DNA of 32,016 nt from Marinobacterium profundum (lineage in GTDB: Bacteria > Pseudomonadota > Gammaproteobacteria > Pseudomonadales > Balneatricaceae), in contig NZ_BCNS01000137.1 in NCBI RefSeq assembly GCF_001528745.1, positions 1 to 32,016 of the forward strand. The letters run 5' to 3'. The translations under genes and the position numbers were made by a program. Below the pieces are notes generated by a model. That model saw only the letters and a list, made by a program, of their open reading frames with translations. It made no database searches and was not told where the DNA came from. Shown here piece after piece: positions 9,499 to 30,550 of this stretch (positions are counted from its first letter, which is position 1; each line of letters begins with the position of its first letter).

Positions 9499-10245
9499 GC
9501 TCAAACAGCGTTTAGTAGATCCAGCGACTGATCTAAGCATTGCTTTTTAATATAGCCAGGTGGGTGCAGGCCCGAAGGGGCGTAACCCAACACTGAACCA
9601 TCGGTTGATGGGTTTCGCTTCGCTGCACCCTACTTGGCGAATATGGCCCGGTAGGGACGGAAGGTTGGGTAAAGGAGCGTAACGACATGCCCAACAGCCT
9701 CGATTGATCGCCGCGCTCCGCTTTGCTCATCCTGCAACAGGATATTAGTTTGTGAAAACTCTAACCGCTAAAGGCCGAGCTAGAGCATTTTTATCTTACA
9801 TCGACCCATTGCGATGGTTGAGACGAGACTAAAGTGACTTTGTTGGAGCCTGTGCAGGCTGGGGTATCGGAGCGGTTTGATGGCGCATATTCCGCCTTGC
9901 TGGCGCGTTACTTTCTTTGCTCGTGCAAAGAAAGTAACCAAAGAAAGCACGCCCCGATGAAGCCTATTCGCTGCGCTCTGAGATCATTCAGCGGGCTGCG
10001 CTGACGGTACATCCATGTACCTCATCGCAGGCGCATCAGTCCCTGTTGCGCCCCTTCGGGCCTGATCGCAGAATGACCTCAGTGCTCGCCGGCTTCATAA
10101 GGGGGAAGCAAGAGCCGCTCTGATGGTTCGGTGGGCAGTAGGCAACTAGTACTTTCATCTTACCTCAACCCATATCCGGCCGCCTCGAAGCAAGGAAGAA
10201 CTCAAAACAACCTCGATCGACAGATAAGTGTTTCGTGAAAATGCT
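9499..10245. other. Gene-free 747-bp interval filled with repeats
   Basis: No credible gene. 9560-9720 holds short degenerate repeats of the type GGTTTCGCTTCGCTGCACCC and GGTTGGGTAAAGGAGCG, common as intergenic litter in Proteobacteria. From 9780 it is occupied by the segment with CTAGAGCATTTT ends and the structured repeat copy at 9907-10126. Confidence 0.7.
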
Positions 10246-10249
10246 CTAG
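9780..10249. repeat. 470-bp segment bounded by 12-bp inverted repeats CTAGAGCATTTT
   Basis: CTAGAGCATTTT at 9780-9791 and its exact reverse complement at 10238-10249 bracket the structured repeat copy. Inside the ends there is also an imperfect direct repeat (ATCTTACaTCgACCCAT near 9793 and ATCTTACcTCaACCCAT near 10156). The right end includes the cobQ stop codon. It could be a further CTAG-bounded insertion or chance. Confidence 0.4.
9907..10126 (+). repeat. Structured dispersed repeat, copy A (complete)
   Basis: Copy A begins with hairpin I (GTTACTTTCTTTGC/GCAAAGAAAGTAAC, 9907-9938). Outer arms ATGAAGCC (9957-9964) and GGCTTCAT (10091-10098) pair, as do inner arms 9979-9993 and 10067-10081 with two mismatches. 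Hairpin II is GGTACAT-CC-ATGTACC (10006-10021). Hairpin III is GGCGCA...TGCGCC around CAG-TCC-CTG (10030-10052). It ends with the conserved CATAAGGGGGA...GAGCCGCTCTGATG. Five more copies are listed below. ORFs across it are not conserved in frame between copies. Confidence 0.85.
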
Positions 10250-11721
10250 AGATCCAGCAGTCGATCCACCGCGCCCAGATCCAGATGCGCTTCCAGGCAA
10301 TCCGCCAGGCGGTCTATGCCGGCCTCGCGCAGTGCCTGATAGTCGGGGCTTGCCGCCTCGCTAAAGCCAGCCCAGGCCAGCAGCGCATCGGTAGCACTGG
10401 CCTGGTCGAACAGACCGTGTAGATAGGTTCCAAGAATCTGATTATCCAGACTCAGGGCACCTTCATCCCGGCCCTCGATTTGCAGCGCCGGGCGCTGCAG
10501 GCCCGCCCCCCGGGTAACACCCAGATGAATTTCGTATCCCGCCACAGTGGCGCCGTTCAGCATCAGGGTCCCGGTTACGTTGCGCAGCTGCTTGTGGGCC
10601 TCAAGTGTTGTTTCAATCTCAAGCAAGCCCAGACCTGCACTCATACCCGGAGCCCCTTCAATCCCCAGCGGGTCCTGCACCTGCTGACCCAGCATCTGAT
10701 AGCCGCCACAGATACCGATCAACTTGCCACCATAACGCAGATGCCGCTGAATCCGGGCTTCCCAGCCCTGGGCGCGCAACCAGTGCAGATCGCTGCGCAC
10801 CGACTTGGAACCCGGCAGAATAATCAGATCAGCAGGGCCCGGCGTCTCGCCTGGGCCCACAAACTCAAAATCTATCTGCGGGTGCAGGCGCAGTGCATCA
10901 AAGTCGGTGTGGTTGCTGATATGGGGCATAACCGGCACCTGTACCCGCAGGCAGGCGCCTTCGGGCCTGGCGTAATGATCCCGCGACACGGCATCTTCGG
11001 CTTCCAGGTGCAGGCCATGCAGATAGGGCAAAACCCCCAGCACCGGCTTGCCGGTACGTGCTTCCAGCCAGTCGAGGCCCGACTGCAAGAGCGCAATATC
11101 GCCGCGAAAACGGTTGATAACAAAGCCCGCCACCCGCGCCTGCTCGGTTTCGCTCAGCAGGTCCAGCGTACCCACCAGATGGGCAAAAACGCCGCCGCGA
11201 TCAATATCGGCAATCAGGATCACCGGACAATCCACTGCCTCGGCAAAGCCCATATTGGCGATATCCCGGGCGCGCAGATTGATCTCAGCGGGTGATCCCG
11301 CCCCCTCCACCACCACTGCGCGATACTGCTCACACAGGCGCCCGTGGGACTCCAGCACCGCCTGCATGGCGACCTTTTTGTAGTCGTGGTAGATGCCGGC
11401 TTCCATATTGGCAATGGCGTGGCCGTGGATAATCACCTGGGCGCCGGTATCGGAATTAGGCTTGAGCAGCACCGGGTTCATATCGGTATGGGGCGCCAGA
11501 TAACAGGCCTGTGCCTGCACCGCCTGGGCCCGCCCTATCTCACCGCCATCCACAGTGACGGCGCTATTGAGCGCCATGTTCTGTGGTTTGAACGGCGCCA
11601 CGGCGACACCCCGGCGCGCCAGTACACGACAGAGTCCTGCGACCAGAGTGCTCTTGCCAGCATCAGAGGTAGTGCCCTGGATCATCAGGGTATTGCTGAT
11701 CATAGGTGTTGTGGCGCTCAT
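10246..11721 (-). CDS. cobQ: Cobyric acid synthase CobQ (CbiP)
   Basis: 491 aa, normal length. It amidates adenosylcobyrinic a,c-diamide at four peripheral carboxylates, using glutamine and ATP, to give adenosylcobyric acid. The N-terminal ATPase domain starts [20 protein letters not shown] and has [13 protein letters not shown]. The C-terminal class I glutamine amidotransferase domain has the nucleophile Cys in [12 protein letters not shown] (about residue 330) and the catalytic His in YLHGLFDQ. The start codon overlaps the stop of the upstream decarboxylase gene by 4 nt (ATGA), indicating translational coupling. It is the last gene of the riboswitch-led B12 operon. No clear terminator follows, and its stop codon lies within the inverted repeat at 10238-10249. 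Confidence 0.96.
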
Positions 11722-12701
11722 GCATTTATCTCCGTCAAGGCCCTGTCCAACCGTGCCCAGCCGGCTTCATCCGGCGGCAAACCAAAGCGCAGGCTCGCGG
11801 GCAATTCAAACAATCGGGTAAAAATGGCCCGCTGCGCCAACTCCGCATGCAGGCGCGCAGCATCGGCGGCAGGAACCCACTGAAACAGGGCACAGCCACC
11901 AGCGGGTGCCAGATGATGGCGCTGCAACAGCGCGGCCAGGCGATCGCTTTCCCGGGCGAGCTGAAGGCGCATGGACTCCTGCCACCCCCGGTCATTAAGC
12001 GCCTGCGTGGCCGCCGCTCGGGCCGGCCCTGAGACGGCCCAGGGCCCCAGCAGTTCACGCAGCGGCTGCAGAATCTCGGGCTGTGCCAGTACAAAGCCCA
12101 CACGAATACCCGCCAGGCCAAAAAACTTGCCCACCGAGCGCAGTATGATAAGCCCCGGCAGCCCCACATAGGCCGCAAGACTTGCCTCGGGGGTCGCATC
12201 AATAAAGGCTTCGTCCAGCACCAGCCAGCCGCCGCGCGCCGCCTGCTGGCGCTGCCAGCCCAAGAGTTCATCGGCACTGATACGCTCGCCACAGGGGTTG
12301 CCCGGGTGAATCAGTACCAGCACATCAGACGCCGGCAGGCTCTCGCGCAACTCACCGGCGGATATCGGCTGCACCTCATGACCGGCAAGGCGCCAGGCGT
12401 GCTGATGTTCCTGGTAGCCCGGCGACATCACCCGCACCTCACAGGGGGCACGCAGTCTTGGCAACGCCTGAATGGCCGCCTGGGATCCGGCAACGGGCAA
12501 CAGACTGTCGCAGCCATAATAGGCAACCGCGGCCGTTTCCAGGCCATCGTCATCCTCGGGCAGGCGTGCCCAGCAGTGGGGGTCAAGCGCTGGCACCGGC
12601 CAGGCCTGGGGATTAAGGCCCGTCGACAGATCCAGCCAGCGGTGCAGCGCGATTCCCTGCTGCAGCGCTGCGCGGCGCAGCCGTCCACCGTGTTGCAGCA
12701 T
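11718..12701 (-). CDS. cobC: L-threonine-O-3-phosphate decarboxylase (CobC in Pseudomonas, CobD in Salmonella naming)
   Basis: 327 aa, PLP-dependent class I/II aminotransferase fold. It makes (R)-1-amino-2-propanol O-2-phosphate, the linker of the nucleotide loop. The N terminus ([30 protein letters not shown]) is typical of the family. The PLP lysine is in [29 protein letters not shown] and [10 protein letters not shown] match the cofactor-binding region. The ATG at 12701 is preferred because GGAG lies 7 nt upstream; an in-frame TTG at 12707 is too close to that site. It lies 58 bp after cbiB and overlaps cobQ by 4 nt. Confidence 0.92.
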
Positions 12702-12759
12702 GCTCAAACTCCATAGTCAGTTTTTAATCAGCAGCGCACTGCAACGCAAGTCGCAAAAT

Positions 12760-13716
12760 TCAGATCAGCAGACCCGCGACTATTAACACCAGAAGCCAGA
12801 GCGTGACGCTGTGCCGCACCAGCCGCAGCGCCCGGGGGATATCCTCAGGTACAGGTTCAGGCCCCTGCCCGAGCCAGGGCTTTTGCAGCCACTGCCCCCG
12901 GTAGCGTGCAGGCCCGCCAAGGCGAACACCCAGCGCCCCTGCGCCTGCCGCCATCACCGGGCCACCATTGGGGCTGTCGCAGGCCGCTGCCTGAGTGCGC
13001 CAGCAGCGCAACGCCACGCGGGTCTGGCCCAGCAGCGCATAGCTCAGCGCAGTTAGTCGGGCCGGCAGCCAGTTAAGCACATCGTCGATACGGGCGCTGG
13101 CCCGGCCAAAATACAGGTAGCGCGGCGACCGGTAACCCCAGCTGGCATCCAGCGTATTAGCCAGACGAAACAGCACTACACCGGGCAGGCCCGCCACGGC
13201 AAACCAGAACAGGGCACCAAATACCGCATCGTTGCCGTTTTCCAGAATTGACTCAATAGTTGATTTTTCAATATCCAGTGTTGCGGCGTCTCTACTGACT
13301 ATACGAGCTGCATAATCCCGGGCTGTAGCCTCTTCGCCCTGTTGCAAGGCTCTGAACACCGGTTGTGCATGATCGTGCAAACTGCGATGTCCCAGCGCCC
13401 AGTACAGCCCCAGCACCGCGGCCAGTTCCGCCAGCAGCGGTAGGCCGGACAGCCACCAGGCCAGCACAATCCCGGGCACCAACAGCAGCAGCCAGGCGAT
13501 TGCACCGGCGATAATCTGGGCTCTATCGCCCTGCCCCCAGCGGCCATGAAACGCTTGCTCGACCCGGGCCGCAAGGCGCCCGAAGGCCACCAGCGGATGC
13601 CAGCGCAGCGGCGGCTCACCCAGAACCCCGTCCAATACGACCGCCACCAGCATGATCAAGGCCGTCGTGAGCAGATCGCCTGAGTGCCATCCATCTCCCG
13701 TAAACAGGCCCGGCAT
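12760..13716 (-). CDS. cbiB: Adenosylcobinamide-phosphate synthase CbiB (CobD)
   Basis: 318 aa integral membrane protein with several hydrophobic helices. It attaches aminopropanol (phosphate) to adenosylcobyric acid. Near the N terminus, LDGVLGEPPLRWHPLVAFGRLAARVE is the CbiB signature. VSRDAATLDIEKSTIESILENGNDAVFGALFWFAVAG matches the conserved middle segment. RYRGQWLQKPWLG and the hydrophobic C terminus fit as well. The start overlaps the bluB stop by one base (TAATG). It works directly with the adjacent cobC-type decarboxylase product. Confidence 0.95.
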   Translation of the reverse strand: MPGLFTGDGWHSGDLLTTALIMLVAVVLDGVLGEPPLRWHPLVAFGRLAARVEQAFHGRWGQGDRAQIIAGAIAWLLLLVPGIVLAWWLSGLPLLAELAAVLGLYWALGHRSLHDHAQPVFRALQQGEEATARDYAARIVSRDAATLDIEKSTIESILENGNDAVFGALFWFAVAGLPGVVLFRLANTLDASWGYRSPRYLYFGRASARIDDVLNWLPARLTALSYALLGQTRVALRCWRTQAAACDSPNGGPVMAAGAGALGVRLGGPARYRGQWLQKPWLGQGPEPVPEDIPRALRLVRHSVTLWLLVLIVAGLLI

Positions 13717-14369
13717 TAACTCCTGTCCCAGCCATCGGTCGACAGCAAATCAGTCAGCGGCCGTGGCTCAGCCCAACCGCTGTCCTGCAGCATGGGGCGA
13801 GGATAAAAGGCTTCGACCTGCCCCAGACAGAGCACGGCCACCGGCTGACTTCCCGCAGGCATATCCAGCAGCTCTGCCAGGGCGACAGGATCAAACAGAG
13901 ATACCCAGCCCATGCCAAGACCCTCAGCGCGGGCGGCCAGCCAGAGATTCTGGATGGCACAGGACACCGAGGCCAGATCCATTTCCGGCAGGGTTCGACG
14001 GCCAAACACATGAGCTTCGCGCTTGTCTGCCAAGGCGACCACCAGCAACTCACCGCATTCGCGCACGCCTTCCACCTTGAGGCGCATAAACTCCTCTTCC
14101 CGCTCCCCCAGCGCCCGGGCGGTATTGCAGCGCTCCTGCTCCACCAGCGCAACAATAGCCGTTCGCAGCGTGGCATCGCAGATACGGATAAAGCGCCAGG
14201 GCTGCATCAGGCCCACACTGGGCGCACAGTGCGCCGCCTCCAATAGACGCGCCAGCACCTCAGCTGGCACAGCACCTGGTAAAAAATGCCGCATGTCACG
14301 ACGCTCGCGGATGGCGCGGTAAACCGCATCGCGCTCGGCATCACTGAAGCTTTGGTCGGGGCGGGTCAT
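13716..14369 (-). CDS. bluB: 5,6-dimethylbenzimidazole synthase BluB
   Basis: 217 aa from the ATG at 14369. The flavin-destructase BluB turns reduced FMN and oxygen into DMB, the lower ligand of B12. It is a nitroreductase-like protein. RERRDMRHFLPGAVP near the N terminus, CAPSVGLMQPWRFI, and AEGLGMGWVSLFDP are typical. An in-frame upstream ATG at 14423 would add 18 residues and overlap cobO by 47 nt. I chose 14369 by fit to the family N terminus, although neither start has a strong ribosome-binding site. Presence of bluB implies DMB-type cobalamin made aerobically. Confidence 0.93.
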   Translation of the reverse strand: MTRPDQSFSDAERDAVYRAIRERRDMRHFLPGAVPAEVLARLLEAAHCAPSVGLMQPWRFIRICDATLRTAIVALVEQERCNTARALGEREEEFMRLKVEGVRECGELLVVALADKREAHVFGRRTLPEMDLASVSCAIQNLWLAARAEGLGMGWVSLFDPVALAELLDMPAGSQPVAVLCLGQVEAFYPRPMLQDSGWAEPRPLTDLLSTDGWDRS

Positions 14370-14376
14370 GACTGTA

Positions 14377-15030
14377 TTAAAGTTCGATACCGTGCTGGGC
14401 CTTAACCCCCGCACGAAAAGCATGCTTTACATCACCCATTTCGGTGACGGTGTCGGCCAGCTCAATCAGCTCGGCCGGCGCGCCGCGCCCGGTGATGATC
14501 AGGTTCTGATGTGCAGGCCGTGCCTGGGCCGCCTCGATCACGGCTTCAAGGGGCACATAGCCATACTTGAGGGCGATACTGAGTTCATCCAGCACCACCA
14601 TGTGAATGTTCGGGTCGGACATCAGGCCGCAGGCGATATCAAAGGCGGCCATGGCCGCCGCGACATCCCGCTCCCGGTTCTGGGTCTCCCAGGTGAATCC
14701 CTCGCCCATAACGTGGTAGCTCACGCCCGGCAGTTTGCGAAAGAAGGCCTCTTCGCCTGTGCTGAAGGCGCCCTTGATAAACTGCACCACGCCCACGCGC
14801 TGACCGTGCCCCAAAGCGCGTGCCACCATGCCAAAGGCCGAGCTGCTTTTACCCTTGCCGTTGCCGGTCAGCACGACCACTATGCCGCGCACCGTATCGG
14901 CCCGGGCAATGGCGGCATCCACCACATCCTTTTTGCGCTTCATGCGCTCTTGATGGCGCAGTTCCTTAGCCGCCGCTTCAGACACCTGCTCAGCAGCGTT
15001 TTCGGGTGCTGCGGATGTTGAATCGCTCAT
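14377..15030 (-). CDS. cobO: Cob(I)yrinic acid a,c-diamide adenosyltransferase CobO (BtuR)
   Basis: 217 aa, P-loop CobA/CobO/BtuR family. It adds the 5'-deoxyadenosyl ligand to the cobalt of corrinoids, so it serves both synthesis and salvage. The charged N-terminal segment ends in RMKRKKDVVDAAIARA. The Walker A motif GNGKGKSSSAFGM lies at about residue 56-68. VVLDELSIALKYG and the C-terminal HAFRAGVKAQHGIEL are family-typical. The start overlaps the btuM stop by 4 nt. bluB starts 7 nt downstream. Confidence 0.96.
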   Translation of the reverse strand: MSDSTSAAPENAAEQVSEAAAKELRHQERMKRKKDVVDAAIARADTVRGIVVVLTGNGKGKSSSAFGMVARALGHGQRVGVVQFIKGAFSTGEEAFFRKLPGVSYHVMGEGFTWETQNRERDVAAAMAAFDIACGLMSDPNIHMVVLDELSIALKYGYVPLEAVIEAAQARPAHQNLIITGRGAPAELIELADTVTEMGDVKHAFRAGVKAQHGIEL

Positions 15031-15608
15031 GAGATCTCCCTGTGCTGGCTATGCCGCAGTTTCTCAGCCGACAACCAGGCCCCGTGCAGCAGGGTCGTCA
15101 GGCCTATATAAAACGCCATTGATTGCAGGCTCAGGGGCCCGTAACGCAACATGCGCTGGGCAAACTCGGCCAGAGTCGGATCGGCAAAACGCCCCGAGAA
15201 GTAATAGTAGCTGCCGCTGGAAATCAGCTGGCACAGGCTAGATGCGACCAATACCGACAGCAGCAAGTTGCCCAGCATGGACCAGTGCGCACGGTAACGC
15301 GTTGCCAGCCACTGTCCACCCATCCAGAGGGCGCCATAGGCCGGCAACAGCATCGGATAGGACACAGTGATGCACAGGTCAATAGCACCCTGAAAGCCCA
15401 CGGCGATCATGTCCAGCAGCACAGCTTCAAGCATCAGGCCGGCAAAGGCCCATTTGGATCTGAGGTAAAAACCGGCGATAAAAAACAGTGCCCAGGAAGC
15501 ACTGGGAAGATTTTCCAGGCTGGCAAAATGATGGCCGCGCGAGGCGGCCATCATCAGTGCCAGCACCAGGCCCAGCACAAGCTGGGCACGGGAGCTGAGT
15601 TGCAGCAT
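15027..15608 (-). CDS. btuM: BtuM-type solitary S-component cobalamin transporter
   Basis: 193 aa, hydrophobic, about six membrane segments. SASWALFFIAGFYLRSKWAF and DLCITVSYPMLLPAYGALW are the parts I recognise as BtuM, the ECF S-component-like B12 transporter described from Thiobacillus denitrificans. Residue 79 is a Cys, at the position of the cobalt-liganding Cys (about 80) of that protein as I remember it. AGGA precedes the ATG in the 14-bp gap after btuB, and cobO overlaps its end by 4 nt. Placement between the outer-membrane B12 receptor and the adenosyltransferase, under a B12 riboswitch, supports inner-membrane corrinoid uptake. No btuC, btuD or btuF is in the window. Confidence 0.85.
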   Translation of the reverse strand: MLQLSSRAQLVLGLVLALMMAASRGHHFASLENLPSASWALFFIAGFYLRSKWAFAGLMLEAVLLDMIAVGFQGAIDLCITVSYPMLLPAYGALWMGGQWLATRYRAHWSMLGNLLLSVLVASSLCQLISSGSYYYFSGRFADPTLAEFAQRMLRYGPLSLQSMAFYIGLTTLLHGAWLSAEKLRHSQHREIS

Positions 15609-15622
15609 TGTCTATGTCCTGA

Positions 15623-17410: not shown

Positions 17411-17544
17411 TAAAAACAGATCCTTCCCGTACTCACCCGCACGGCAATCAACAAAGAGAGAGGTAACGCGGAAGGATACAAACGAGGACGCCGCGCGCAG
17501 TAAAATCTGAGCGCCTGCGTGCCGCTGCAAAGCCCTCCGCGATG

Positions 17545-17795
17545 CCGACAAATTGCTTTTGGCCGGTCTCCGGACTCACGACAGAATGCAGATGCACTCT
17601 GAAACAGCGCCTTCCCATGCATAAACACAGTGGCGTGTCGCTGTTGCGCGCAGCCTCCAGGCACCAGTGCCAAAAAGGGTGTACGTCGTTTACCGTTGCG
17701 GGGGCAGTGCCGGCATTGCCGCGATAGGGATAAACCCCGCCGTCAGGCGCACCGGCTTCCCGATTAAACCCAAGCGCAAAACCCTTGGGTACCAG
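17545..17795 (-). ncRNA. Cobalamin riboswitch controlling the btuB-cobQ operon
   Basis: Read on the minus strand, the conserved blocks occur in canonical order. TTTAATCGGGAAGCCGGTG is at about 17749-17767 and CTGCCCCCGCAACGGTAA at about 17690-17707. The B12-box region GCCACTG then GGGAAGG lies at about 17612-17636, and GAGTCCGGAGACCGGCC at 17561-17577. It ends ~135 nt before the btuB ATG, leaving room for an expression platform that I did not resolve. B12 binding normally turns expression off. Edges are approximate. Confidence 0.95.
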
Positions 17796-17863
17796 AAGCA
17801 GGGCGCATTGTAGGGGCAGGATGAGCGAATTACAAATGCAGGCAGGTGCTGCCAGATAAAGCA

Positions 17864-21503: not shown

Positions 21504-21613
21504 CTTTGCAGGATTTTGATGCGTCAAAAATGGGGGATATATTCTTCGAAAGAATTTATATTACAAAGAGATAGGGTGATATTCTGATATTCCCTGTTAA
21601 GAGCTCTGGTTGT

Positions 21614-21830
21614 GTCACTTTCTTTGCTCGTGCAAAGAAAGTAACCAAAGAAAGCACGCCCCGATGAAGCCTATTCGCTGCGCTCTGAGATCATTCGGCG
21701 GGCTGCGCTGAAGGTACATCCATGTACCTCATCGCAGGCGCAACAGTCCCTGTTACGCCCCTTCGGGCCAATTCGCCGAATAACCCCAGTGCTCGCTGGC
21801 TTCATAAGGGGGATCGGAGCCGTTCTGATA
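21614..21830 (+). repeat. Structured dispersed repeat, copy B (complete)
   Basis: Hairpin I is at 21614-21645. Hairpin II is GGTACAT/ATGTACC (21713-21728). Hairpin III is AACAG-TCC-CTGTT (21742-21754). Inner arms ATTCGGCG (21693-21700) and CGCCGAAT (21774-21781) pair perfectly, whereas copy A has a mismatch. The 3' end CATAAGGGGGA...GAGCCGTTCTGAT is conserved. Confidence 0.85.
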
Positions 21831-21896
21831 TTTCAGTGTTGCTGACCCAGCTCTGCGTAATGACCGATAAAGCGCTGTCGCCGCCGCTTTTTCTTG

Positions 21897-22031
21897 CCCC
21901 TAGCCCCTAGCCCCTCGCACCTTTCTTTGCCACCTCGCCCCTTTCTTCGCCCCCTAGCCCCTAGAACCTAGCCCCTTTCTTTGCCACCTCGAACCTCGAA
22001 CCTCGAACCTCGCACCTTTCACCTTTCACCT
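21897..22031. repeat. Degenerate heptanucleotide repeat array
   Basis: About 19 units of 7 bp in phase, with variants CCCTAGC, CCTCGAA, CCTCGCA and CCTTTCA. The array ends 6 bp before the ilvY stop codon. A second short array of the same family lies at 28762-28792. Confidence 0.8.
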
Positions 22032-22924: not shown

Positions 22925-23169
22925 GGGGCTAGCTTAACCGTTATTGCAAAATATGGCACACGGTGTTGCGTTTATATCGATTTACGAAAGAAGGCATCTT
23001 CGCTACAGTAGCCCCACTAGATTTTCAGGCGGTGCAGCCCCTGAGCAAATCTGGAGGTATAATACCTCGCCAGATTTGATGGGCTGCACAGCGCTTTGTT
23101 TACGCAAGCCTGGCTTAATACGTTGTTTTAGCTGCTCTGGCAGCTGCTTACATATACGGGAATTTCAAA
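22925..23169. promoter_or_regulatory. ilvY-ilvC divergent regulatory region
   Basis: A 245-bp spacer. TTGC occurs twice about 22 bp apart (near 22944 and 22967) in an AT-rich stretch where tandem IlvY operators would be expected. The assignment is tentative. Downstream is the large inverted repeat 23032-23089, containing TATAAT at 23058-23063. Confidence 0.5.
23032..23089. repeat. Large nested inverted repeat in the ilvC leader
   Basis: Three nested arms pair perfectly: GTGCAGCCC (23032-23040) with GGGCTGCAC (23081-23089), CAAATCTGG (23046-23054) with CCAGATTTG (23070-23078), and AGGTA (23055-23059) with TACCT (23063-23067). That gives 23 bp in 58 nt, interrupted only by a small internal loop and a 2-nt bulge. 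The centre contains TATAAT. The ilvC ATG is 80 bp downstream. Confidence 0.8.
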
Positions 23170-24645
23170 ATGCCAAACAATTATTTCAACACCCTGCCCC
23201 TGCGTGAGCAGCTCGAGCAACTGGCCAAGTGCCGTTTCATGGACATTTCCGAGTTTTCAGACGGCGTTTCCGCTCTGAAAGGCAAGAAAATGGTCATCAT
23301 CGGTTGTGGCGCCCAGGGCCTGAACCAGGGTCTGAACCTGCGCGACAGCGGCCTGGATGTTTCCTACGCCCTGCGTCAGGCAGCCATCACCGAGAAGCGC
23401 CAGTCCTGGAAAAACGCTTCCGAGAACGGCTTCACCGTCGGCACATACGAAGAGCTGGTTCCTACCGCTGATATCGTCCTGAACCTGACGCCTGACAAGC
23501 AGCACACGTCCGTAGTGACCGCTGTTATGCCGCTGATGAAACAGGGTGCCTGCCTGTCCTACTCTCACGGTTTCAACATCGTTGAAGAAGGCATGAAGGT
23601 ACGTGAAGACCTGACCGTCATCATGGTTGCACCCAAGTGCCCGGGTTCTGAAGTTCGCGCTGAATACGTGCGTGGCTTCGGTGTGCCAACGCTGATCGCC
23701 GTTCACGAAGACAACGATCCCAAGGGTGAAGGCCTGGCCCTGGCCAAGGCATACGCCGTTGGCACCGGCGGCCACAAGGCCGGCGTGCTGATGTCGTCTT
23801 TCATCGCCGAAGTTAAATCCGACCTGATGGGCGAGCAGACTATCCTCTGCGGCATGCTGCAGACCGGCTCCCTGCTGTGCTTCGACAAGATGATCGAAGA
23901 AGGTGTTGACGCAGGTTACGCCTCCAAGCTGATCCAGTTCGGCTGGGAAACAGTGACCGAAGCCCTGAAATACGGCGGCGTGACCAACATGCTGGACCGC
24001 CTGTCCAACCCGGCCAAGATCAAGGCGTTTGATCTGTCCGAAGAGCTGAAAGTCATCATGCGTCCGCTGTACAACAAGCACCAGGACGACATCATCGACG
24101 GCACCTTCTCCCGCACCATGATGGAAGACTGGGCGAACGATGACAAAAACCTGCTGGGATGGCGCGCTGAAACCGCCGAAACAGCGTTTGAGAAGACTCC
24201 GGCCGGCGATGTTGAAATCTCCGAGCAGGAATACTTCGACCACGGCATCCTGATGGTTGCCATGGTTAAGGCGGGCGTTGAGCTGGCCTTCGAAACCATG
24301 ACTGCTGCTGGCATCGTTGCCGACTCCGCTTACTACGAGTCGCTGCATGAAACCCCGCTGATCGCCAACACAATCGCGCGCAAGAAATTGTACGAGATGA
24401 ACGCAACGATCTCCGATACCGCCGAGTACGGTTGCTACCTGTACAACCACGCTTGCCTGCCGCTGCTGGCCGACTTCATGAAGGGCATCAAGACCGACGT
24501 TATCGGTCGCGGTCTGCCGGTTGACGACAACGGTGTCGACAACGCCCGTCTGATCGAAGTCAACACAGCCCTGCGCAGCCACCCGGTTGAAGCTATAGGC
24601 GCTGTACTGCGCGGCCACATGGCCGACATGAAGAAGATTGTATAA
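23170..24645 (+). CDS. ilvC: Ketol-acid reductoisomerase IlvC, class II (long form)
   Basis: 491 aa, the length of E. coli IlvC; class I enzymes are ~330-340 aa. It converts 2-acetolactate and 2-aceto-2-hydroxybutyrate to dihydroxy acids with NADPH and Mg in valine and isoleucine synthesis. The N terminus ([20 protein letters not shown]) and nucleotide site [19 protein letters not shown] (about 43-61) match the enteric enzyme. [16 protein letters not shown] carries metal-binding Asp and Glu. Two knotted C-terminal domains follow ([38 protein letters not shown]). It is controlled by divergent IlvY. A strong terminator follows. Confidence 0.97.
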
Positions 24646-24660
24646 GTCTTCTTGAGTGAG

Positions 24661-24688
24661 CGATGCCTGCGGTACTGTGCAGGCATCG
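24661..24688. other. Perfect 10-bp stem-loop between ilvC stop and its terminator
   Basis: CGATGCCTGC and GCAGGCATCG flank an 8-nt loop. It has no T run, so it may stabilise the mRNA 3' end rather than terminate. Confidence 0.5.
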
Positions 24689-24694
24689 CGCACT

Positions 24695-24728
24695 AAAAAA
24701 GCCGGGACTTGTGTCCCGGCTTTTTTTT
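24695..24728 (+). terminator. Rho-independent terminator of ilvC
   Basis: Stem AAAAAAGCCGGGAC/GTCCCGGCTTTTTT with loop TTGT, ending in eight T. The A tract on the left arm makes it potentially bidirectional. Confidence 0.92.
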
Positions 24729-24794
24729 GAACGCAACTTTTCCAAAACGCCTGTTAAAGGTGCCTGAGCAACAACCCTGGCTGGATTCCCTCCC

Positions 24795-26237
24795 ATGACT
24801 ACTCGCCGCCCTATTCACCTGGAAGCGCTAACGATTCAGTTTGATGAGCGTTTTCAGCTAAACAATATCAACTGGCAAATTGAGCCCGAGCAGCACTGGG
24901 TCATCACCGGCACCAATGGCGCCGGCAAATCCGCCCTGGCTGCCGTGCTGGCAGGTGCCGGTGAGCGGGTCTCGGGCAGCCTTAGCGGCCTGCCTGCACG
25001 GGTCGGTGTAGTGTCCTTTGAGGCCCAGGCCGAGCTGATCGAAGCCGAACGCAAAAAGGATGACGCCGATATTCTCGATGTCATCTCCGAAGGCACCCCG
25101 GTGCATGAAATGCTGTTCAAGGACTGCGCAGACCCCGCGACCGCCCGCGATCTGGTGGCCCGATTCAAGCTGGAATACCTGCTGGATCGCGCCTTCAGAA
25201 AGCTCTCCACCGGGGAGTCGCGCAAGGTGATGCTCATTCGGGCGCTGTCCAGCAACCCCGAACTGCTGGTGCTGGACGAACCCTTCGATGGCCTGGATGT
25301 CGACACCCTGTCGATGCTGCAAGCCTATCTGGCCACGCTGATCGAAACCGTGCCCATGGTGCTGGTACTGAACCGCTTTGATGAATTCCCCGACTTCATC
25401 ACCGATATCGCCTACGTCAACCAGGGCGAGCTGCAGCTACAGGTGAAGCGCGATGATCCCAAGGCCTATGCCGAGCTCTATCAGCTGCTGCACCTCAAGA
25501 CCACCCAGCTGGCGGTGCCGCCCGCAGACCCTGAAACCGCCATCCCGGCGCTGGACCCAGCTCAGCCGCTGGTGCATCTCAATGGCGTGAGCATCAAGTA
25601 CGATGACAAGGCGCTGTTCAGCGACCTGGACTGGACCATCAACCCCAACCAGCACTGGCAGCTGAGCGGCCCCAACGGCAGCGGCAAAACCGGGCTGCTG
25701 TCGCTGATTACCGGCGACCATCCGCAGTGCTACGTCAACGATATCTTTGTGTTCGGTTTCAAGCGCGGCAGCGGCGAGAGCATCTGGCAGATCAAGCAGT
25801 TCATCGGCTATGTCTCCAGTGCGCTGCAGTGGGAATACCGGGTGGGCACCAGCCTGCGCAATGTCATCATCTCCGGTTTTTACGACAGCATCGGCCTGTA
25901 CAGCAAGTACAGCGACCGTCAGCGCCAGATTGCCGATCAGTGGCTCGCGCTGCTGGGCATGAGCCATCGCGCCGATCAGCCTTTCAACAAGCTGTCCTAC
26001 GGTGATCAGCGCCTGCTGCTGATCGCCCGCGCCATGGTGAAGCACCCGCCGCTGCTGATTCTGGATGAGCCCTGCCTGGGGCTGGATGACATGAACCGCC
26101 AGCTGGTGCTGGCACTGATCGAGAAGATCTGCGCCGGCACCGAGACTGCGGTGATCTACGTGAACCACCATCCGGAAGATCGGATAGAGGGGATCGAAAA
26201 CTACCTGGCGCTGAACGCGCCCACACCAACTCAATAA
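24795..26237 (+). CDS. modF: ModF-type tandem ABC ATPase
   Basis: 480 aa with two ABC ATPase domains in one chain and no membrane segment. The first domain has Walker A GTNGAGKSA (39-47), signature LSTGESRK and Walker B LLVLDEPFDGLD. The second has Walker A GPNGSGKTG (about 292), LSYGDQRLLLI and LLILDEPCLGLD. Segments such as LSLITGDHPQCYVNDI and IWQIKQFIGYVSSALQWEYRVGTSLRNVIISGFYDSIG follow E. coli ModF closely. E. coli modF lies beside the molybdate operon; its exact role is unsettled. Here there is no molybdate transporter nearby. The gene stands alone after the ilvC terminator and lacks an obvious ribosome-binding site. Confidence 0.88.
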   Translation: MTTRRPIHLEALTIQFDERFQLNNINWQIEPEQHWVITGTNGAGKSALAAVLAGAGERVSGSLSGLPARVGVVSFEAQAELIEAERKKDDADILDVISEGTPVHEMLFKDCADPATARDLVARFKLEYLLDRAFRKLSTGESRKVMLIRALSSNPELLVLDEPFDGLDVDTLSMLQAYLATLIETVPMVLVLNRFDEFPDFITDIAYVNQGELQLQVKRDDPKAYAELYQLLHLKTTQLAVPPADPETAIPALDPAQPLVHLNGVSIKYDDKALFSDLDWTINPNQHWQLSGPNGSGKTGLLSLITGDHPQCYVNDIFVFGFKRGSGESIWQIKQFIGYVSSALQWEYRVGTSLRNVIISGFYDSIGLYSKYSDRQRQIADQWLALLGMSHRADQPFNKLSYGDQRLLLIARAMVKHPPLLILDEPCLGLDDMNRQLVLALIEKICAGTETAVIYVNHHPEDRIEGIENYLALNAPTPTQ

Positions 26238-26298
26238 GACCAAAGCGCCCGGGCCTGTCAGGGGCCCGTGTACGCTTGCTCAATCCAGCTATCAGCTA

Positions 26299-27540
26299 TC
26301 AACGGCGACGACGATCCGGCTTCTTGCCCAGCGCACGCTCCCGCGCACGTTTATTCTGGGTGCCCCTGCTGACGCTGCGGGTATTGCGCACCTCTTTCGT
26401 CGGGTCCGGTTCATAGCCTGGCAACCATTGCTGCATCAAGCGCTCGTCGAGGATGACTTCTATCTGTTCCAGCAGGTAGTTTTCCGCCGGGCTCAGCAAC
26501 GATATTGCCATGCCGGAGCCGCCCGCACGGCCGGTACGCCCGATACGGTGGATATAGTCCTCGGCGTTGTAGGGCAACTCATGGTTGATCACATACTGCA
26601 GCTGATCGATGTCCAGCCCGCGTGCCGCCACGTCAGTGGCCACCAGCACCCGGGTATCCCCCGCCCTGAAGGCCTCCAGCGCCCGCTCCCGCGCACCCTG
26701 GGATTTGTCGCCGTGGATCGACTGGGTTTTTAGACCGTCCTTGCACATCTCGCTGGCGAGTTCATCCGCGCCCTGCTTGGTGCGGGTAAATACCAGCACC
26801 TGATGCCAGTTCTTGCTGCCGATCAGATAGGAGATCAGCTCGCGCTTGCGATCGGCATCCACCGCGTACACCATCTGCTCAACCCTGCGAGCGACAGTGT
26901 TGCGGGCGTCCACCTCAATCAGGGTGGGATCCTTCAGCAGGCTTTTGCTGAGTGCAAAAATCTCAGGCCCAAAGGTGGCGGAGAACAGCAGCGTCTGCCG
27001 CGCAGCCGGGATGGGTTTGATAATACGGCGCACTTCGTCGATAAAGCCCATATCCAGCATGCGATCCGCCTCATCGAACACAAGATGGCGCACCTGACTC
27101 AGATCCGCCGCCCCGCGACCAATCAGATCCAGCAGACGCCCGGGCGTTGCCACCAGAATATCCACGCCACTGGCGAGTGCCGCCATCTGGGTGTTAACAC
27201 TGGCACCGCCGTACACCAGCGCCGTCTGCAGCGCACTCTGGCTGCCGTAGGCCACAAAGCTCTTGTACACCTGCTGGGCCAACTCCCGTGTAGGCGTCAG
27301 CACCAGCGCCCGAATAGCGCGCTTGGGCGACGCGAATACGGGCGCCTCACTCAGCAGTTGCAGGATCGGCAGCGCAAAGGCGGCGGTTTTGCCGGTACCG
27401 GTCTGGGCGCCGGCCATCAGGTCTTGTCCTGCAAGAATGGCCGGGATGGTGGCAACCTGGATCGGCGTGGGTTCGGTGTAGCCCTGTTCGGTAACGGTAT
27501 CAATCAGTGACTGATTAAGACCGGTGGTGGAAAATCCCAT
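26299..27540 (-). CDS. rhlE: DEAD-box RNA helicase, RhlE-type
   Basis: 413 aa from the ATG at 27540. The frame is open further upstream, but that region is repetitive and not family-like. All helicase motifs are present in order: Q motif GYTEPTPIQ, AQTGTGKT (45-52), PTRELAQQ, VFDEADRMLDMGF, SAT, VFTRTKQGADEL, VLVATDVAARGLD and HRIGRTGR. The C-terminal tail is short and basic (NKRARERALGKKPDRRRR). RhlE-type helicases act in ribosome assembly and RNA turnover. It converges on modF with 61 bp between stops. The start has only a poor ribosome-binding site. Confidence 0.93.
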   Translation of the reverse strand: MGFSTTGLNQSLIDTVTEQGYTEPTPIQVATIPAILAGQDLMAGAQTGTGKTAAFALPILQLLSEAPVFASPKRAIRALVLTPTRELAQQVYKSFVAYGSQSALQTALVYGGASVNTQMAALASGVDILVATPGRLLDLIGRGAADLSQVRHLVFDEADRMLDMGFIDEVRRIIKPIPAARQTLLFSATFGPEIFALSKSLLKDPTLIEVDARNTVARRVEQMVYAVDADRKRELISYLIGSKNWHQVLVFTRTKQGADELASEMCKDGLKTQSIHGDKSQGARERALEAFRAGDTRVLVATDVAARGLDIDQLQYVINHELPYNAEDYIHRIGRTGRAGGSGMAISLLSPAENYLLEQIEVILDERLMQQWLPGYEPDPTKEVRNTRSVSRGTQNKRARERALGKKPDRRRR

Positions 27541-27862
27541 GGCGTTGTCTGGCTCTGCTGGTCGGGGTGGTGGGCGGGTATTATACCTGTTGTTGTGGGG
27601 CGATCTGGTGTCTTGGTGGTCTAATTTAACGCGAGCGGTTTGATATCCAATTGCAGGCTGGGCAAAGCGGAGCCTGCCCGTCGAGCACCGACTTTCGTAG
27701 GGTGCCAATGAGCCTGCGAATTGCACCGTGCGGCGGTAGGGTTCTGCCTAATCGTTGAATGTCGCCAGGCTGTGCGAAAGCAAGGTCGGAGGTATATATA
27801 GCAACCGGTGCAGGCGGACGCTTCATCGATTCTTGATGGTCCATGTAACACCTTCTTGGCGT

Positions 27863-28075
27863 GTCACTTTCTTTGCTCGCGCGAAAGAAAGTAACCAAAG
27901 AAAGCGCGCCCCAATGAAGCCTTTTCGCTGCGCTCCGACGCCATTGTGCGGGCGCCGCTAACGCACATCCATGTGCTAATCGGCATCGATACAGTCCCTG
28001 TATCGACCTTTCGGCCTGATCGCACAATGACTCCAGTGCTCGCTGGCTTCATAAGGGGGAACGAAGCCGTTCTGG
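27863..28075 (+). repeat. Structured dispersed repeat, copy C (complete)
   Basis: Hairpin II is GCACAT/ATGTGC (27963-27976). Hairpin III is TCGATACAG/CTGTATCGA (27986-28006). Inner arms are CATTGTGC (27942-27949) and GCACAATG (28022-28029). All are perfect and all differ from copies A and B with compensating changes. Confidence 0.85.
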
Positions 28076-28109
28076 CGTATTGGCGTATTGGCGTATTGGC
28101 GTATTGGCG
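28073..28109. repeat. 8-bp microsatellite TGGCGTAT, 4.6 units
   Basis: Four exact TGGCGTAT units at 28073-28104, then TGGCG. The equivalent place after copy D (about 28613) has roughly one unit. Confidence 0.9.
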
Positions 28110-28353
28110 GTGCGAGATTAACGGCTGCAATTTGATATTCGAATGTAGGATGGGCAAAGCAGAGCTTGCCCATCGGGAACTGGCTTTTGTAGGATGCCAA
28201 TGAGCCTGCGAATTGCATCATGCGGCGGTAGGGTTCTGCCTAATCGTTGTATGTCGCCAGGCTGTGCAGAAGCAAGGTGGGAGCATATATAGCAACCTGT
28301 GTAGGCGGACGCTTCGTCGATCCTTGATGGTCCATGTAACGCCTTCTTGGCGT

Positions 28354-28613
28354 GTCACTTTCTTTGCTCGCGCGAAAGAAAGTAACCAAAGAAAGCGCCC
28401 CAATGAAGCCTTTCGCTGCGCTCTGAGATCATTCAACGGGCTCCGCTGACGGTACATCCATGTACCTCATCGGAGGCGCAACAGTCCCTGTTGCACCCCT
28501 TCGGGCCGGATCGTCGAATGACCTCAGTGCTCGCCGGCATATGGCCATGGATGGCCAGTAGCCAGAAAATGCAGGAGCAATTTTCTGCTCATAAGGGGGA
28601 TTGGAGCCGTTCT
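28354..28613 (+). repeat. Structured dispersed repeat, copy D (with internal insertion)
   Basis: Hairpin II is GGTACAT/ATGTACC. Hairpin III is GCAACAG-TCC-CTGTTGC. Near the 3' end about 50 bp are inserted between CGCCGGC and CATAAGGGGGA. The insert holds two hairpins of its own: GGCCAT/ATGGCC (28543-28556) and CAGAAAAT/ATTTTCTG (28563-28587). Confidence 0.85.
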
Positions 28614-28761
28614 TGCGTATTGGCGGTGCCGGGTTAACGGTTGCGATTTGATATTCGAATGTAAGATGGTCAAAGCGGAACCTAACTATCGGGCACTGGA
28701 TTTTTGTAGAGTGCCAATGAGTTTGCGAATTGCACCATGCAGCGGTGCAGCTGCTCTATAG

Positions 28762-28792
28762 CCTCGCACCTCGCACCTCGCACCTCGCACCT
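28762..28792. repeat. Short heptanucleotide array CCTCGCA
   Basis: Four exact CCTCGCA units at 28762-28789, then CCT. Same family as 21897-22031. Confidence 0.85.
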
Positions 28793-29175
28793 GCGATTTT
28801 CTCCTTCCAACTTGATCCTGTTTTAGGCATTATTCGGTGAGCACCGACGGAGTACTGGTGCAATGCTTTGATCGTCAAAAGTAATCGTCAGCTAAGCAAC
28901 GGAAGCCAGGCTGGGTGAAATCCCTCCCCCCATTCCCCTGCTTTACTGGCCCTGCCTGCGCAGCATCGCAAGACGGCATTCAGTCTTCGAGCGGGCGGTA
29001 GCGTGGTTTTTAGGTTCGTTCGGCAGAGTTGGCAAAAAGAGTTGGCTGTATCAATATGATCTGAACAGCTCACTCTACTTGGCATTGCGCCTGATTTTGA
29101 CGAGAATCCATCAGGAAATACAGGCCACAGGAAAAACGGCCTTCAAGGATAGAATACAATTCTACAGGAAGAAAC
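28793..29175. other. Gene-free stretch, no identifiable feature
   Basis: 383 bp between the repeat block and the small membrane protein. Short ORFs exist on both strands but lack start context or recognisable content. I see nothing else in it. Confidence 0.5.
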
Positions 29176-29643
29176 ATGGAACCCTTAAGCCTCAGAGTAA
29201 AATTCAAGGATGCATTGAAGATTGCCATCAAAAATACTTGGTTACCATTTCTATTAGGGATTGGGCTGGCTGCTTATAGAGGAAGCATCAATTCAGACAG
29301 CATTGCGCTCGTATCTCTACTGCTGACTGGAATACTAGCTATTGTAGCTTTACTTCTATGCTCTATACCCTGTCTAGAATTAACTAGAGCTGGTATTAAC
29401 TTCAAAAACTGGCGAGGTAGAGATGAGTTCTGCGGTTGGAGTAACGATCTAACCTTGGTGCGAACAAAACAGGGAGGCTATCTAGCCTATTTGTTAAAAA
29501 ACTCACATCAAAATAAAACTTATAAAGTTCCAAGCGTTTTATTCACATACCCCGAAGTTCATAATTTTATAAATACGTATGCGCCAAGATCTCATGTTTT
29601 CAGGGGCCATCTTAGTGACTCCTCCGGTCCTTACTTGCAATGA
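29176..29643 (+). CDS. Hypothetical small membrane protein
   Basis: 155 aa, not recognised. CAGGAAG lies upstream of the ATG. Residues ~20-37 (NTWLPFLLGIGLAAYRG) and ~42-67 (SIALVSLLLTGILAIVALLLCSIPCL) are hydrophobic and could form a two-helix hairpin. The remaining ~85 residues are soluble and mixed, including NFKNWRGRDEFCGWSNDLTLVRTKQGGYLAYLLKNS. That layout, two helices then a compact beta-rich domain, resembles bacterial PH-like membrane proteins, but this is only a resemblance. AT content and codon use (many ATA, TTA, AAA) differ sharply from the iol and cob genes, suggesting acquired DNA. The VOC gene starts 28 bp downstream. Confidence 0.55.
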   Translation: MEPLSLRVKFKDALKIAIKNTWLPFLLGIGLAAYRGSINSDSIALVSLLLTGILAIVALLLCSIPCLELTRAGINFKNWRGRDEFCGWSNDLTLVRTKQGGYLAYLLKNSHQNKTYKVPSVLFTYPEVHNFINTYAPRSHVFRGHLSDSSGPYLQ

Positions 29644-29671
29644 GTATCAACACCCGTAAAGGAAGTCAATA

Positions 29672-30052
29672 ATGTTCACAGTAAAAGCAACCCAGCACGT
29701 TTTGGCGGTCAATGATCTTGAGAAGAGCGAGAGCTATTTTCTCGACAAGCTTGGATTTTCGGTTCGGTTCCGGGTGGGTGGCTGGTCGTTCCTTAGTCTG
29801 TGCAGCTTCCATGTGATGCTGGGACACTGCCCCGACGAGGTACCGGCCCGCGATACGCATAACCATTCGTACTTCGCCTATGTGAATTGCGACGGCATTG
29901 ATGAGCTCTACAGTGACTACCAGCAGCGCGGCGCCGAGATATGCCAGGCAATATCCGACAAGCCCTGGGGTTTACGGGAGTTTGGTGTTATCACCCCAGA
30001 AGGCCACCGAATCATGTTCGGCGAAGACATTGAGCCATCAGAGAATGCATAA
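29672..30052 (+). CDS. VOC-superfamily (glyoxalase / bleomycin-resistance-like) protein
   Basis: 126 aa, one VOC domain length. The start (VKATQHVLAVNDLEKSESYFLDKLGFSVRF) is the classic first beta-alpha-beta unit. The end (GLREFGVITPEGHRIMFGEDIEPSE) has the usual PEGHRIMFGE motif with a likely metal-ligand Glu. AAGGAAG precedes the ATG. Substrate unknown. It may be co-transcribed with the small membrane protein upstream. Confidence 0.85.
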   Translation: MFTVKATQHVLAVNDLEKSESYFLDKLGFSVRFRVGGWSFLSLCSFHVMLGHCPDEVPARDTHNHSYFAYVNCDGIDELYSDYQQRGAEICQAISDKPWGLREFGVITPEGHRIMFGEDIEPSENA

Positions 30053-30177
30053 TTAGTCGACATAGCAGATTCAAAGAAGCGTGGTAGCTTTTAGCGATAA
30101 TCGCAGGCGTTATGAATCAGCATTAAATCCAGATAAGTGATGGGATGAAGTCAGTTTTATATAATTCAATCCAAAAC

Positions 30178-30297
30178 ATCAGAGCGGCCCCTTTCCCCCT
30201 TATGAAGCCAGCGAGCACTGGTGACATTGTACGATCAGGCCCAAAGGCGAACAGCAGAGACTGCTGCGCCGGCGATTAGATGCAGGATGCTCCCACT
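30178..30297 (-). repeat. Structured dispersed repeat, copy E (5' truncated)
   Basis: On the minus strand it keeps hairpin III as CAGCAG-TCT-CTGCTG (30252-30266), a remnant of hairpin II, and the conserved 3' end CATAAGGGGGA...GGCCGCTCTGATG. Hairpin I and the 5' outer arm are missing. Confidence 0.75.
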
Positions 30298-30370
30298 CTT
30301 CATCGTTACAGCATGCGTTATAAAAAATATGAAATGCAGACAGGTGGGGAGCAGATTAAAACGTCTAATA

Positions 30371-30550
30371 CATCAGAGTGGCCTCCTTCCCCCTTATGAA
30401 GCCGGCGAGCACTGGCGTCATTGTGCGACAAGGACCGCAGGGGCGAAGACAGGGACTGTCGAGCCGGCGATTAGGAACAGGATGTTCCGTTAGCGCCGCC
30501 AACATAATGGCGTCCGAGCACAGCGGAAAGGCTTCATCGGGGCGCATTCT
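30371..30550 (-). repeat. Structured dispersed repeat, copy F
   Basis: On the minus strand both outer arms (ATGAAGCC and GGCTTCAT) are kept. Hairpin II is GGAACA-TCC-TGTTCC (30474-30488). Hairpin III is GACAG-TCC-CTGTC (30448-30460). Hairpin I is not recognisable at the 5' end. Confidence 0.8.

Follow-up and report, generated by a model that had tools for sequence, protein, structure and literature searches.

The DNA analysed here is a stretch of 32,016 nucleotides from Marinobacterium profundum (contig NZ_BCNS01000137.1), referred to below as the window. It carries six copies of a structured repeat, labelled A to F, and two reading frames that lie between facing copies (Table 1). All six copies of the original prediction were recovered by BLAST and profile searches, and the helices quoted there are present in the copies; the apical loop of hairpin III in copy E, given as TCC, is TCT. 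The count of six is real but covers a small part of the family, which numbers 67 pieces in the loci collected from the genome that the window belongs to. Similarly, the unit of about 200 nt is indeed a repeat, but it is modular and longer than stated. About 450 bp of the flank upstream of copy B are common to two other copies.

Table 1. Positions of the repeat copies, their modules and the enclosed reading frames in the window.
Feature	Position	Strand	Evidence or detail
Copy A as MITE, structured repeat inside	9780..10249	+	left end AGAGCATTTTTATCTTAC, right end GTGTTTCGTGAAAATGCTCTA
CTAG flanks of copy A MITE	9780-9783 and 10246-10249		
Copy A repeat	9886-10138	+	BLAST and profile searches
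Copy A 5' module: G+C hairpin 1, palindrome, third arm	9892..9947	+	sequence
Copy A palindrome GTTACTTTCTTTGC/GCAAAGAAAGTAAC	9907-9938	+	
Copy A third arm CAAAGAAAG	9939-9947	+	
Copy A branched core	9949..10104	+	covariance model R1, 177 bits; alignment A1
Copy A core, GGUACAUGGAUGUACC and CAGGGACUG hairpins	within 9949..10104	-	
Copy B, between convergent genes	21595..21843	+	core 21656-21811; BLAST/profile, R1, gene calls
Copy C, leading unit of a tandem pair	27840..28087	+	core 27906-28058; BLAST/profile, R1
Copy D, with optional insert of ~50 nt	28331..28632	+	core 28395-28544; BLAST/profile, R1
Tail module, after last copy of arrays	28798..29028	+	BLAST, alignment
ORF of 155 aa, between facing copies	29176..29643	+	no Pfam match; not called by codon-score finder
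Glyoxalase-family gene, between facing copies	29672..30052	+	PF00903, E 4.7e-11; called by codon-score finder
Copy E, truncated	30162..30299	-	BLAST/profile
Copy F	30352..30566	-	core 30390-30545; BLAST/profile, R1

Among the copies listed, the order of the unit is hairpin 1, a AAAGAAAG palindrome, a third AAAGAAAG arm, a branched core of about 156 nt and a tail that runs to about GGTGG; two inserts are optional. Closing pairs in the 5' module vary jointly across these copies (GT/AC, CA/TG, GA/TC and CC/GG). The 5' module with its AAAGAAAG repeats lies outside the covariance model; among 44 class-wide matches, its direct-arm motif stands 5' of the core in 25 and 3' of it in none. The tail module gave 27 BLAST hits, the window included, of which 25 lie 58-256 bp past a same-strand copy and the remaining two, each 31 bp long, 896 and 1389 bp past one; this search covered loci collected around copies, so the nearness is biased.

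What is conserved in the repeat? The nucleic-acid fold is kept by selection, and its covariation is supported at three scales (29, 39 and 46 sequences). Of the cells in A1, in which 29 Marinobacterium cores were aligned by MAFFT, 88.6% are paired, compared with 80.2% in 500 shuffled controls and 34-40% when the structure is slid, a comparison in which the fold has an advantage over the slid versions because it was partly derived from the A1 sequences. Double changes occur in 27 of the 57 pairs, and 131 cells are double-changed (38.8 in shuffled and 14-23 in slid controls); none of the 500 shuffles reaches the observed values for paired cells, double-change pairs or double-changed cells. The number of further pair types is chance-like (52 against 50.6, with 175 of the 500 shuffles as high). 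In the class-wide alignment A4 (46 matches), 714 cells are changed on both sides against 221.7 after shuffling; A3 and A4 were fitted to a covariance model, and eight of the 46 A4 matches helped to build the model R2. The claims that the helices covary, and that structure rather than coding is conserved, are thus borne out by paired double changes beyond chance. Both hairpins carry TCC loops in 29/29 cores of A1, and in 45/46 and 43/46 matches of A4, a class-wide count that is partly circular in that R2 rewards TCC loops.

In loci collected from five Marinobacterium genomes there are 229 matching pieces. A covariance-model search of gammaproteobacterial genomes found the family beyond this genus, in 31 of 369 genomes (its own included) and 27 of 272 genera at an E-value of 0.01 or better. 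A DNA-level search outside Marinobacterium matched seven of 38 genomes, all of one genus; the covariance models reached further. The first 43 nt alone matched in a plasmid search, in five Caballeronia records, and a phage search gave no matches to the repeat. The ACTTTCTTTGC hairpin had been regarded as common in Proteobacteria, and it is present in unrelated taxa such as Caballeronia (10 of 398 genomes of the phylum, its own included). As anticipated, no named Rfam family matches the repeats, either at the gathering score or among the weaker matches listed, and no description of this repeat unit was found in the open-licence literature. The repeat adds a strongly covarying structured family, found in 27 of the genera sampled from the class and unmatched by Rfam here. 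Near one copy, an RT-3 Rfam match fell below the cut-off.

By codon-score gene calls, copies avoid genes and are mostly placed next to their 3' ends. In Marinobacterium, none of 129 copy clusters is inside a called gene, and 137 of the 182 neighbours called are oriented toward the copy; the corresponding counts in nine other genomes are 0/28 and 35/45. Combined, none of 157 placements is intragenic, and most neighbours have their 3' ends facing the copy.

The repeat is dispersed within genomes, and copy A was inserted into CTAG as a MITE of 462 bp. Terminal inverted repeats (AGAGCATTTT..AAAATGCTCT) together with a CTAG target-site duplication were found for the copy A class only. In genome G001 (locus L109), the orthologous CTAG-containing stretch lacks the insert, which is also absent from G002, G003 and G006; the sequence beside copy A (~9530-9775) is likewise missing from these four genomes, so the difference may not stem from one event. 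The proposed mobility is thus demonstrated for copy A and its class, by empty orthologous sites and by the CTAG/TIR ends. The copy A unit recurs in part or whole at 13 further aligned loci. Within the window the MITE end patterns occur at copy A only. The family as a whole resembles MITEs in the TIRs and CTAG of copy A, and both ends lie within 180 nt of 19 of the 229 pieces, but by this distance test at least one end is missing from each of the other pieces, and no autonomous partner with CTAG ends was recognised: where the end patterns were mapped (the window, L137 and 15 loci), no end pair was seen to surround a transposase-sized stretch. The family consists of non-autonomous intergenic repeats that are mobile at least in part.

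What might the conserved fold do? We tentatively favour a partly mobile, fold-selected repeat whose reverse strand is a predicted CsrA-binding RNA, a reading that could well prove wrong. The TCC loops of the plus strand become ANGGA hairpins, the CsrA/RsmA motif, on the reverse strand. This would be the working strand, and it would often be read as the 3' terminal part of a neighbour's transcript. Its core would present two adjacent ANGGA-loop hairpins, GGUACAUGGAUGUACC and either CAGGGACUG or GACAAGGAUGUC, and such paired hairpins have the shape that a CsrA/RsmA dimer binds. Transcription would terminate at the closing stem and the GUGCUUUCUUU after it, where copies A and B have a terminator-like site on the reverse strand. 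The repeats would thereby protect or regulate the upstream mRNA via CsrA, and many of them together would titrate it. On sequence grounds, binding of CsrA by the reverse strand is plausible: A(N)GGA loops occur on this strand in 45/46 and 42/46 of the A4 matches for the two hairpins, the pairing expected of a CsrA/RsmA-binding RNA, and csrA (PF02599) is present in 7/7 genomes of the genus. Several points count against the CsrA reading. Copy number and csrA number are unlinked, with one csrA each in G001 (61 pieces), G004 (one match) and G005 (two matches), terminator counts are near chance, and the conserved loops would suit a DNA-hairpin enzyme just as well. If CsrA does bind, genomes would hold tens of dispersed CsrA sites, and mobile DNA would wire and titrate a global regulator.

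Wobble pairs give mixed evidence that leans towards the reverse strand acting as RNA. In a MAFFT alignment of 82 cores, A.C, which the reverse strand would show as G.U, accounts for 117 cells in 34 pair types and G.T for 47 cells in 21 (34 against 21 pair types, one-sided binomial 0.052). In A1, restricted to pairs at least 80% Watson-Crick, the two are level at 15 to 15; the pair at columns 27-138, which is G.T in 28 of 29 sequences, was excluded by this filter. A4, where model fitting favours plus-strand G.U, has 132 G.T against 59 A.C over all pairs. Because A3 and A4 are model-biased, the strand test was also run on A1 and the 82-core alignment. No reverse-strand promoter was found in the copy A and B stretches.

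CsrB/RsmZ sRNAs also have hairpins with ANGGA loops; they are dedicated genes with few copies, in contrast to the tens of dispersed copies here with two ANGGA hairpins each. Neither CsrB nor TwoAYGGAY gave an Rfam match at the gathering score, nor up to E 1 or 0.1 among the matches listed. The Rsm consensus is given in PMC6849547 as 5'-A/UCANGGANGU/A-3', and PMC4333381 describes paired GGA-loop hairpins as a CsrA signature, naming as proposed CsrA-binding RNAs TwoAYGGAY (RF01731) and the reverse complement of Bacillaceae-1 (RF01690). These share two GGA-loop hairpins with the present repeats, which differ in being dispersed, have three hairpins rather than two, and add a long closing stem as well as the AAAGAAAG module; Bacillaceae-1 was likewise absent at the gathering score and among the weaker matches listed.

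A serious possibility, though a doubtful one, is that the repeat is a single-stranded DNA hairpin element, with its fold and loops read as DNA by a trans-acting recombinase or HUH enzyme and facing copies forming the ends of mobile gene cassettes. A dispersed fold without coding is consistent with this, and the three AAAGAAAG arms resemble repeated protein sites. Within 2.5 kb, facing pairs outnumber back-to-back pairs by 9 to 0 class-wide (L321 and L326 included) and by 6 to 2 in Marinobacterium. However, Marinobacterium has two facing and three back-to-back pairs at 2.5-6 kb, 63 of its 71 neighbours below 2.5 kb are tandem, and most class-wide copies (20 regions) have no partner. Six of the nine class-wide facing pairs enclose ORFs of at least 90 aa, three of them with Pfam matches (HEPN_AbiU2, T5orf172 and DUF4760); the ORFs of L287, L294 and L291 had no Pfam match, and the codon-score finder made no call for those of L287/L323, L294/L324 and L321. 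Facing pairs in Marinobacterium enclose Imm33, a sulfotransferase, the glyoxalase, a DDE transposase fragment and a UG17 RT with SLATT_5. Three facing pairs, 91-173 bp apart, have no gene between them. Moreover, no linked enzyme was found, RAYT genes lying mostly away from copies, and the A.C excess of the 82-core alignment is not expected from a DNA role that is symmetric. Such a system, if real, would be a route by which accessory or defence genes are carried singly, independently of integrons.

Handling by a REP-type (RAYT) nuclease, as once suggested, is unsupported. GTAG is not conserved (21/125 cores on the plus strand, 13/125 on the minus), and RAYT genes are mostly away from copies: three of 50 Y1_Tnp loci, partly overlapping and many with flanks of 1.5 kb only, hold a copy, and one more RAYT-like gene lies in the G000:C80 cluster (24.2 bits, cut-off 23). 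CGTC occurs anywhere in the core in 53/125 cores on the plus strand. REP/REPIN sequences, described in PMC3733652 as 20-40 bp and GTAG- or CGTC-tagged, are likewise dispersed intergenic palindromic repeats, whereas the repeat here measures about 250 nt and has neither a conserved GTAG nor more than a few RAYT genes nearby.

It is unlikely that the repeat is a bidirectional terminator or 3'-end stabiliser, kept for its position between convergent genes without a specific protein ligand. Its location at gene 3' ends would suit this role, as would the stem followed by CTTTCTTT on both strands and the terminator-like site of copies A and B. However, terminator counts are near chance (2 against 0.6 and 2 against 1.0 expected in the copy A and B stretches), g17 relatives were seen without T-rich arms, and constant GGA/TCC apical loops on covarying stems are left unexplained. 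A functionless repeat, spread as a MITE passenger, whose arms would stay complementary through template switching and through gene conversion between copies, is very improbable: copy A does ride in a CTAG MITE, modules are exchanged among the copies listed, two L304 copies differ mainly in the outer arm and in a hairpin III that is replaced yet still paired, and one head-to-head half-element is fused at the palindrome, but many genera share the fold, the loops and the 5' module, and among 19 MITE copies divergence is lower in stems (0.040) than at unpaired sites (0.065). These 19 copies show 13 double changes that restore pairing, next to 12 single changes to G.T and 17 to A.C.

The CsrA reading could also be joined to cassette movement, although this is quite unlikely to hold as a whole. 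Facing repeats would then bracket single accessory or defence genes in a class-wide, non-integron gene-cassette system, a putative hairpin-specific enzyme would move them, and the outward strand would dock CsrA and thereby link expression of the cargo to the regulon of this protein. Integron attC arrays are similar in placing structured sites in arrays beside accessory genes; by contrast, pairs around single genes here face each other rather than running head to tail, with attC boxes judged by eye. An integron-type integrase gene (split intI) adjoins one array in G001, and intI fragments lie near arrays in G002.

The repeat forms a dispersed family that extends across the class and whose fold is under selection. 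Alignment A1, made with MAFFT alone, comprises 29 Marinobacterium cores: 25 less than 90% alike from the 150-160 nt set and another four put in by hand. In it, 27 of 57 pairs carried double changes, and the 131 double-changed cells compare with a shuffled mean of 38.8 and with 14-23 when slid; further pair types, one of five measures, were not above the shuffles. The same picture emerged from 46 class-wide matches at 36 loci (8 of the 46 had served to build the model R2), in which 53 of 57 pairs were doubly changed. The 714 such cells compare with 221.7 in the shuffles and a maximum of 170 on sliding; the alignment, fitted to the model, leans toward structure.

How far does the family reach? 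All six copies of the original prediction were recovered in the window. BLAST gave 69 matches in the window's own genome, some being the palindrome alone on the opposite strand, and a profile search of fetched loci gave 229 pieces across five genomes (G000, the window's own, 67; G003 64; G001 61; G006 24; G002 13), or 178 once merged with a 50-bit cut. The 3'-end pattern matched 21 stretches among GTDB contigs, 20 of them in Marinobacterium sedimentorum or M. rhizophilum and one in a Sphingomonas, and DNA search found the repeat in 7 of 38 genomes, all of a single genus. Within the order, a covariance model of the core (R1) had matches in 10 of 293 genomes, the window's own among them; two genomes of another family had best E-values of 1e-16 and 1.6e-12, and the seven remaining genomes match weakly (9.7e-4 to 9.4e-3). 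Nine genomes were picked for the AAAGAAAG motif, and six had an R1 match at E 1 or better; G321 was the only one below 0.01 (1.8e-4, 3.1e-4), both its matches directly following the motif. A second model, R2, made from 39 matches, was run on the class and reached E 0.01 or better in 31 of 369 genomes (the window's own included) and 27 of 272 genera. Since eight candidates were scored per genome, the copy counts are minimum values; the E-values are rough. The AAAGAAA..CAAAGAAA motif, which lies outside the model, was upstream in 25 of 44 matches and downstream in none (two of the 46 were too short), and its palindrome form was upstream in 26 of 44, that side alone being counted. Twenty of the class-wide loci had no Rfam match at gathering score.

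The order of the parts of the unit is given in the table. Part of the copies carry an optional insert, CTCTTTACCTTGAAG with matching CTTCAAGGTGAAGAG, and others an insert of ~50 nt near the end.

Parts of the repeat unit and features observed around its copies
Feature	Location	Description
5' start of unit		G+C hairpin
Palindrome after hairpin		ACTTTCTTTGC/GCAAAGAAAGT
Third palindrome arm copy		AAAGAAAG, then CCCC
Closing stem of core		ATGAAGCC/GGCTTCAT, then long inner stem
Hairpin II of core		contains ACATCCATGT
Hairpin III of core		contains CAGTCCCTG
Hairpin IV of core		contains CCCTTCGGG; GGGG after the three hairpins
3' tail of unit		GCCGYTCTGATRTHTCGGTGG; flanks diverge beyond
Segment beside copy A	window 9530-9775	likewise missing at that place in four related genomes
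Tail module	window 28798-29028	~230 bp, core CGTCAGCTGAGCAACGGAAGCCAGGCTGGGTGA ... GGGCGGTAGCGTGG; closes arrays
Short tandem repeats adjoining copies B, C, D	window 21890-22017, 28073-28109, 28762-28792	many 7-8 bp units
Head-to-head half-element	L170 883-1288	between two 106-bp MITEs; two 5' modules fused at AAAGAAAG palindrome
Integron-type intI	L137 (G001:C1:2713200-2722000) 243-1246	split over two frames; directly adjoins tail module and array
N-terminal intI fragments	G002 877192-877572, 5175398-5175520	near arrays
Island between facing repeat arrays	G000:C80, L051 8504-12161	RT_UG17, SLATT_5, RAYT-like gene, another ORF
Cobalamin riboswitch	window 17544-17811 (-)	RF00174, 88.4 bits; precedes 642-aa ORF
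RT-3 RNA match	L003 1392-1526 (-)	below threshold, 26.4 bits (cut-off 40.5)

Copies of the repeat sit outside the called genes and mostly at the 3' ends of these. A simple codon-score finder put none of 129 Marinobacterium copy clusters inside a gene; 5' neighbours pointed toward the copy in 86 cases and away in 20 (none in 23), and 3' neighbours toward in 51 and away in 25 (none in 53). Nor did any of 28 matches from 20 regions of nine other genomes lie inside a gene, with 21 toward, 6 away and 1 none on the 5' side, and 14, 4 and 10 on the 3' side.

Which strand is at work? The near-constant loops read TCC on the plus strand and GGA on the reverse. They are present in 29 of 29 A1 cores and kept in 45 (hairpin II) and 43 (hairpin III) of the 46 class-wide matches; by a stricter stem test, 110 of 125 Marinobacterium cores have two TCC hairpins and 122 at least one. 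Wobble pairs can tell the strands apart: single transitions give G.T and A.C equally, and a plus-strand A.C is a reverse-strand G.U. Among 82 MAFFT-aligned cores, A.C exceeded G.T in cells (117 vs 47) and in pair types (34 vs 21, binomial 0.052). In A1 the counts were 46 vs 17 when pairs had to be at least 60% Watson-Crick, falling to 15 vs 15 at a limit of 80%, and in the alignment of the 46 matches fitted to the model G.T was ahead (132 vs 59). These counts lean toward the reverse strand as the working one; they leave RNA versus DNA unsettled.

A reverse-strand RNA of the repeat, putatively bound by CsrA, is a possible reading, slightly less likely in view of the mixed wobble results, and each of its rivals is rated very slightly higher than before. 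The Rsm consensus, given in PMC6849547 as 5'-A/UCANGGANGU/A-3', agrees with hairpin II (ACAUGGAUGU) and with the hairpin III of a g17 relative (ACAAGGAUGU). The Marinobacterium hairpin III is mostly CAGGGACUG. CsrA binding has been proposed, in PMC4333381, for TwoAYGGAY and the reverse complement of Bacillaceae-1, the motif being paired because CsrA is a dimer. All seven genus genomes have csrA, and among them its number does not track repeat copy number.

The main rival to this CsrA-bound RNA is recognition of the hairpins as DNA, with gene cassettes also moved. Facing pairs, with 3' ends inward, bear on it. Among Marinobacterium pairs closer than 2.5 kb, six faced and two stood back-to-back (2 vs 3 at 2.5-6 kb), and 63 of 71 neighbours were tandem. 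The class-wide loci gave nine facing and no back-to-back pairs below 2.5 kb, the nine being seven plus L321 and L326, with L323 and L324 repeating two of the seven; L324 also holds a back-to-back pair 9.1 kb apart, and tandem pairs occur in L283, L263, L293, L311 and L321. Six of the nine enclose ORFs of at least 90 aa, with Pfam matches to HEPN_AbiU2, T5orf172 and DUF4760; in three of the six the enclosed ORFs had no Pfam match, and the close pairs L290, L265 and L326 hold no ORF of that length. The codon-score finder left uncalled the ORFs in L321, in L323 and between the facing copies of L324. Between the facing copies of the window lie a glyoxalase and a 155-aa ORF; one G001 pair has a glyoxalase with an AAA-like ORF, a DDE transposase fragment also being enclosed in that genome, G003 copies enclose Imm33 and a sulfotransferase, and those of G000:C80 a UG17 reverse transcriptase with SLATT_5.

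One class of copies moved as a MITE. Copy A lies inside such an element with CTAG at either end, and the insert is absent from the orthologous place in four related genomes, CTAG being present in G001. The right part of the element is a MITE of ~106 bp that also occurs alone. Of the 229 pieces, 19 have both MITE ends within 180 nt (10 in G000, 8 in G001, 1 in G003), 29 have the left end and 26 the right end. No autonomous partner of the copy A MITE was recognised in the 15 loci, the window and L137, where its ends were mapped. All seven genus genomes carry Y1_Tnp genes; of the 50 partly overlapping loci surrounding these, 3 contain a repeat copy. Other copies form arrays with differing flanks and a common tail module, which in 25 of 27 BLAST hits, all from loci fetched around copies, follows a same-strand copy by 58-256 bp. 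TCACGAA heptamers occur 3' of several array copies. The fused 5' modules in L170 suggest recombination at the AAAGAAAG palindrome. The ORF after the cobalamin riboswitch resembles a TonB-dependent receptor.
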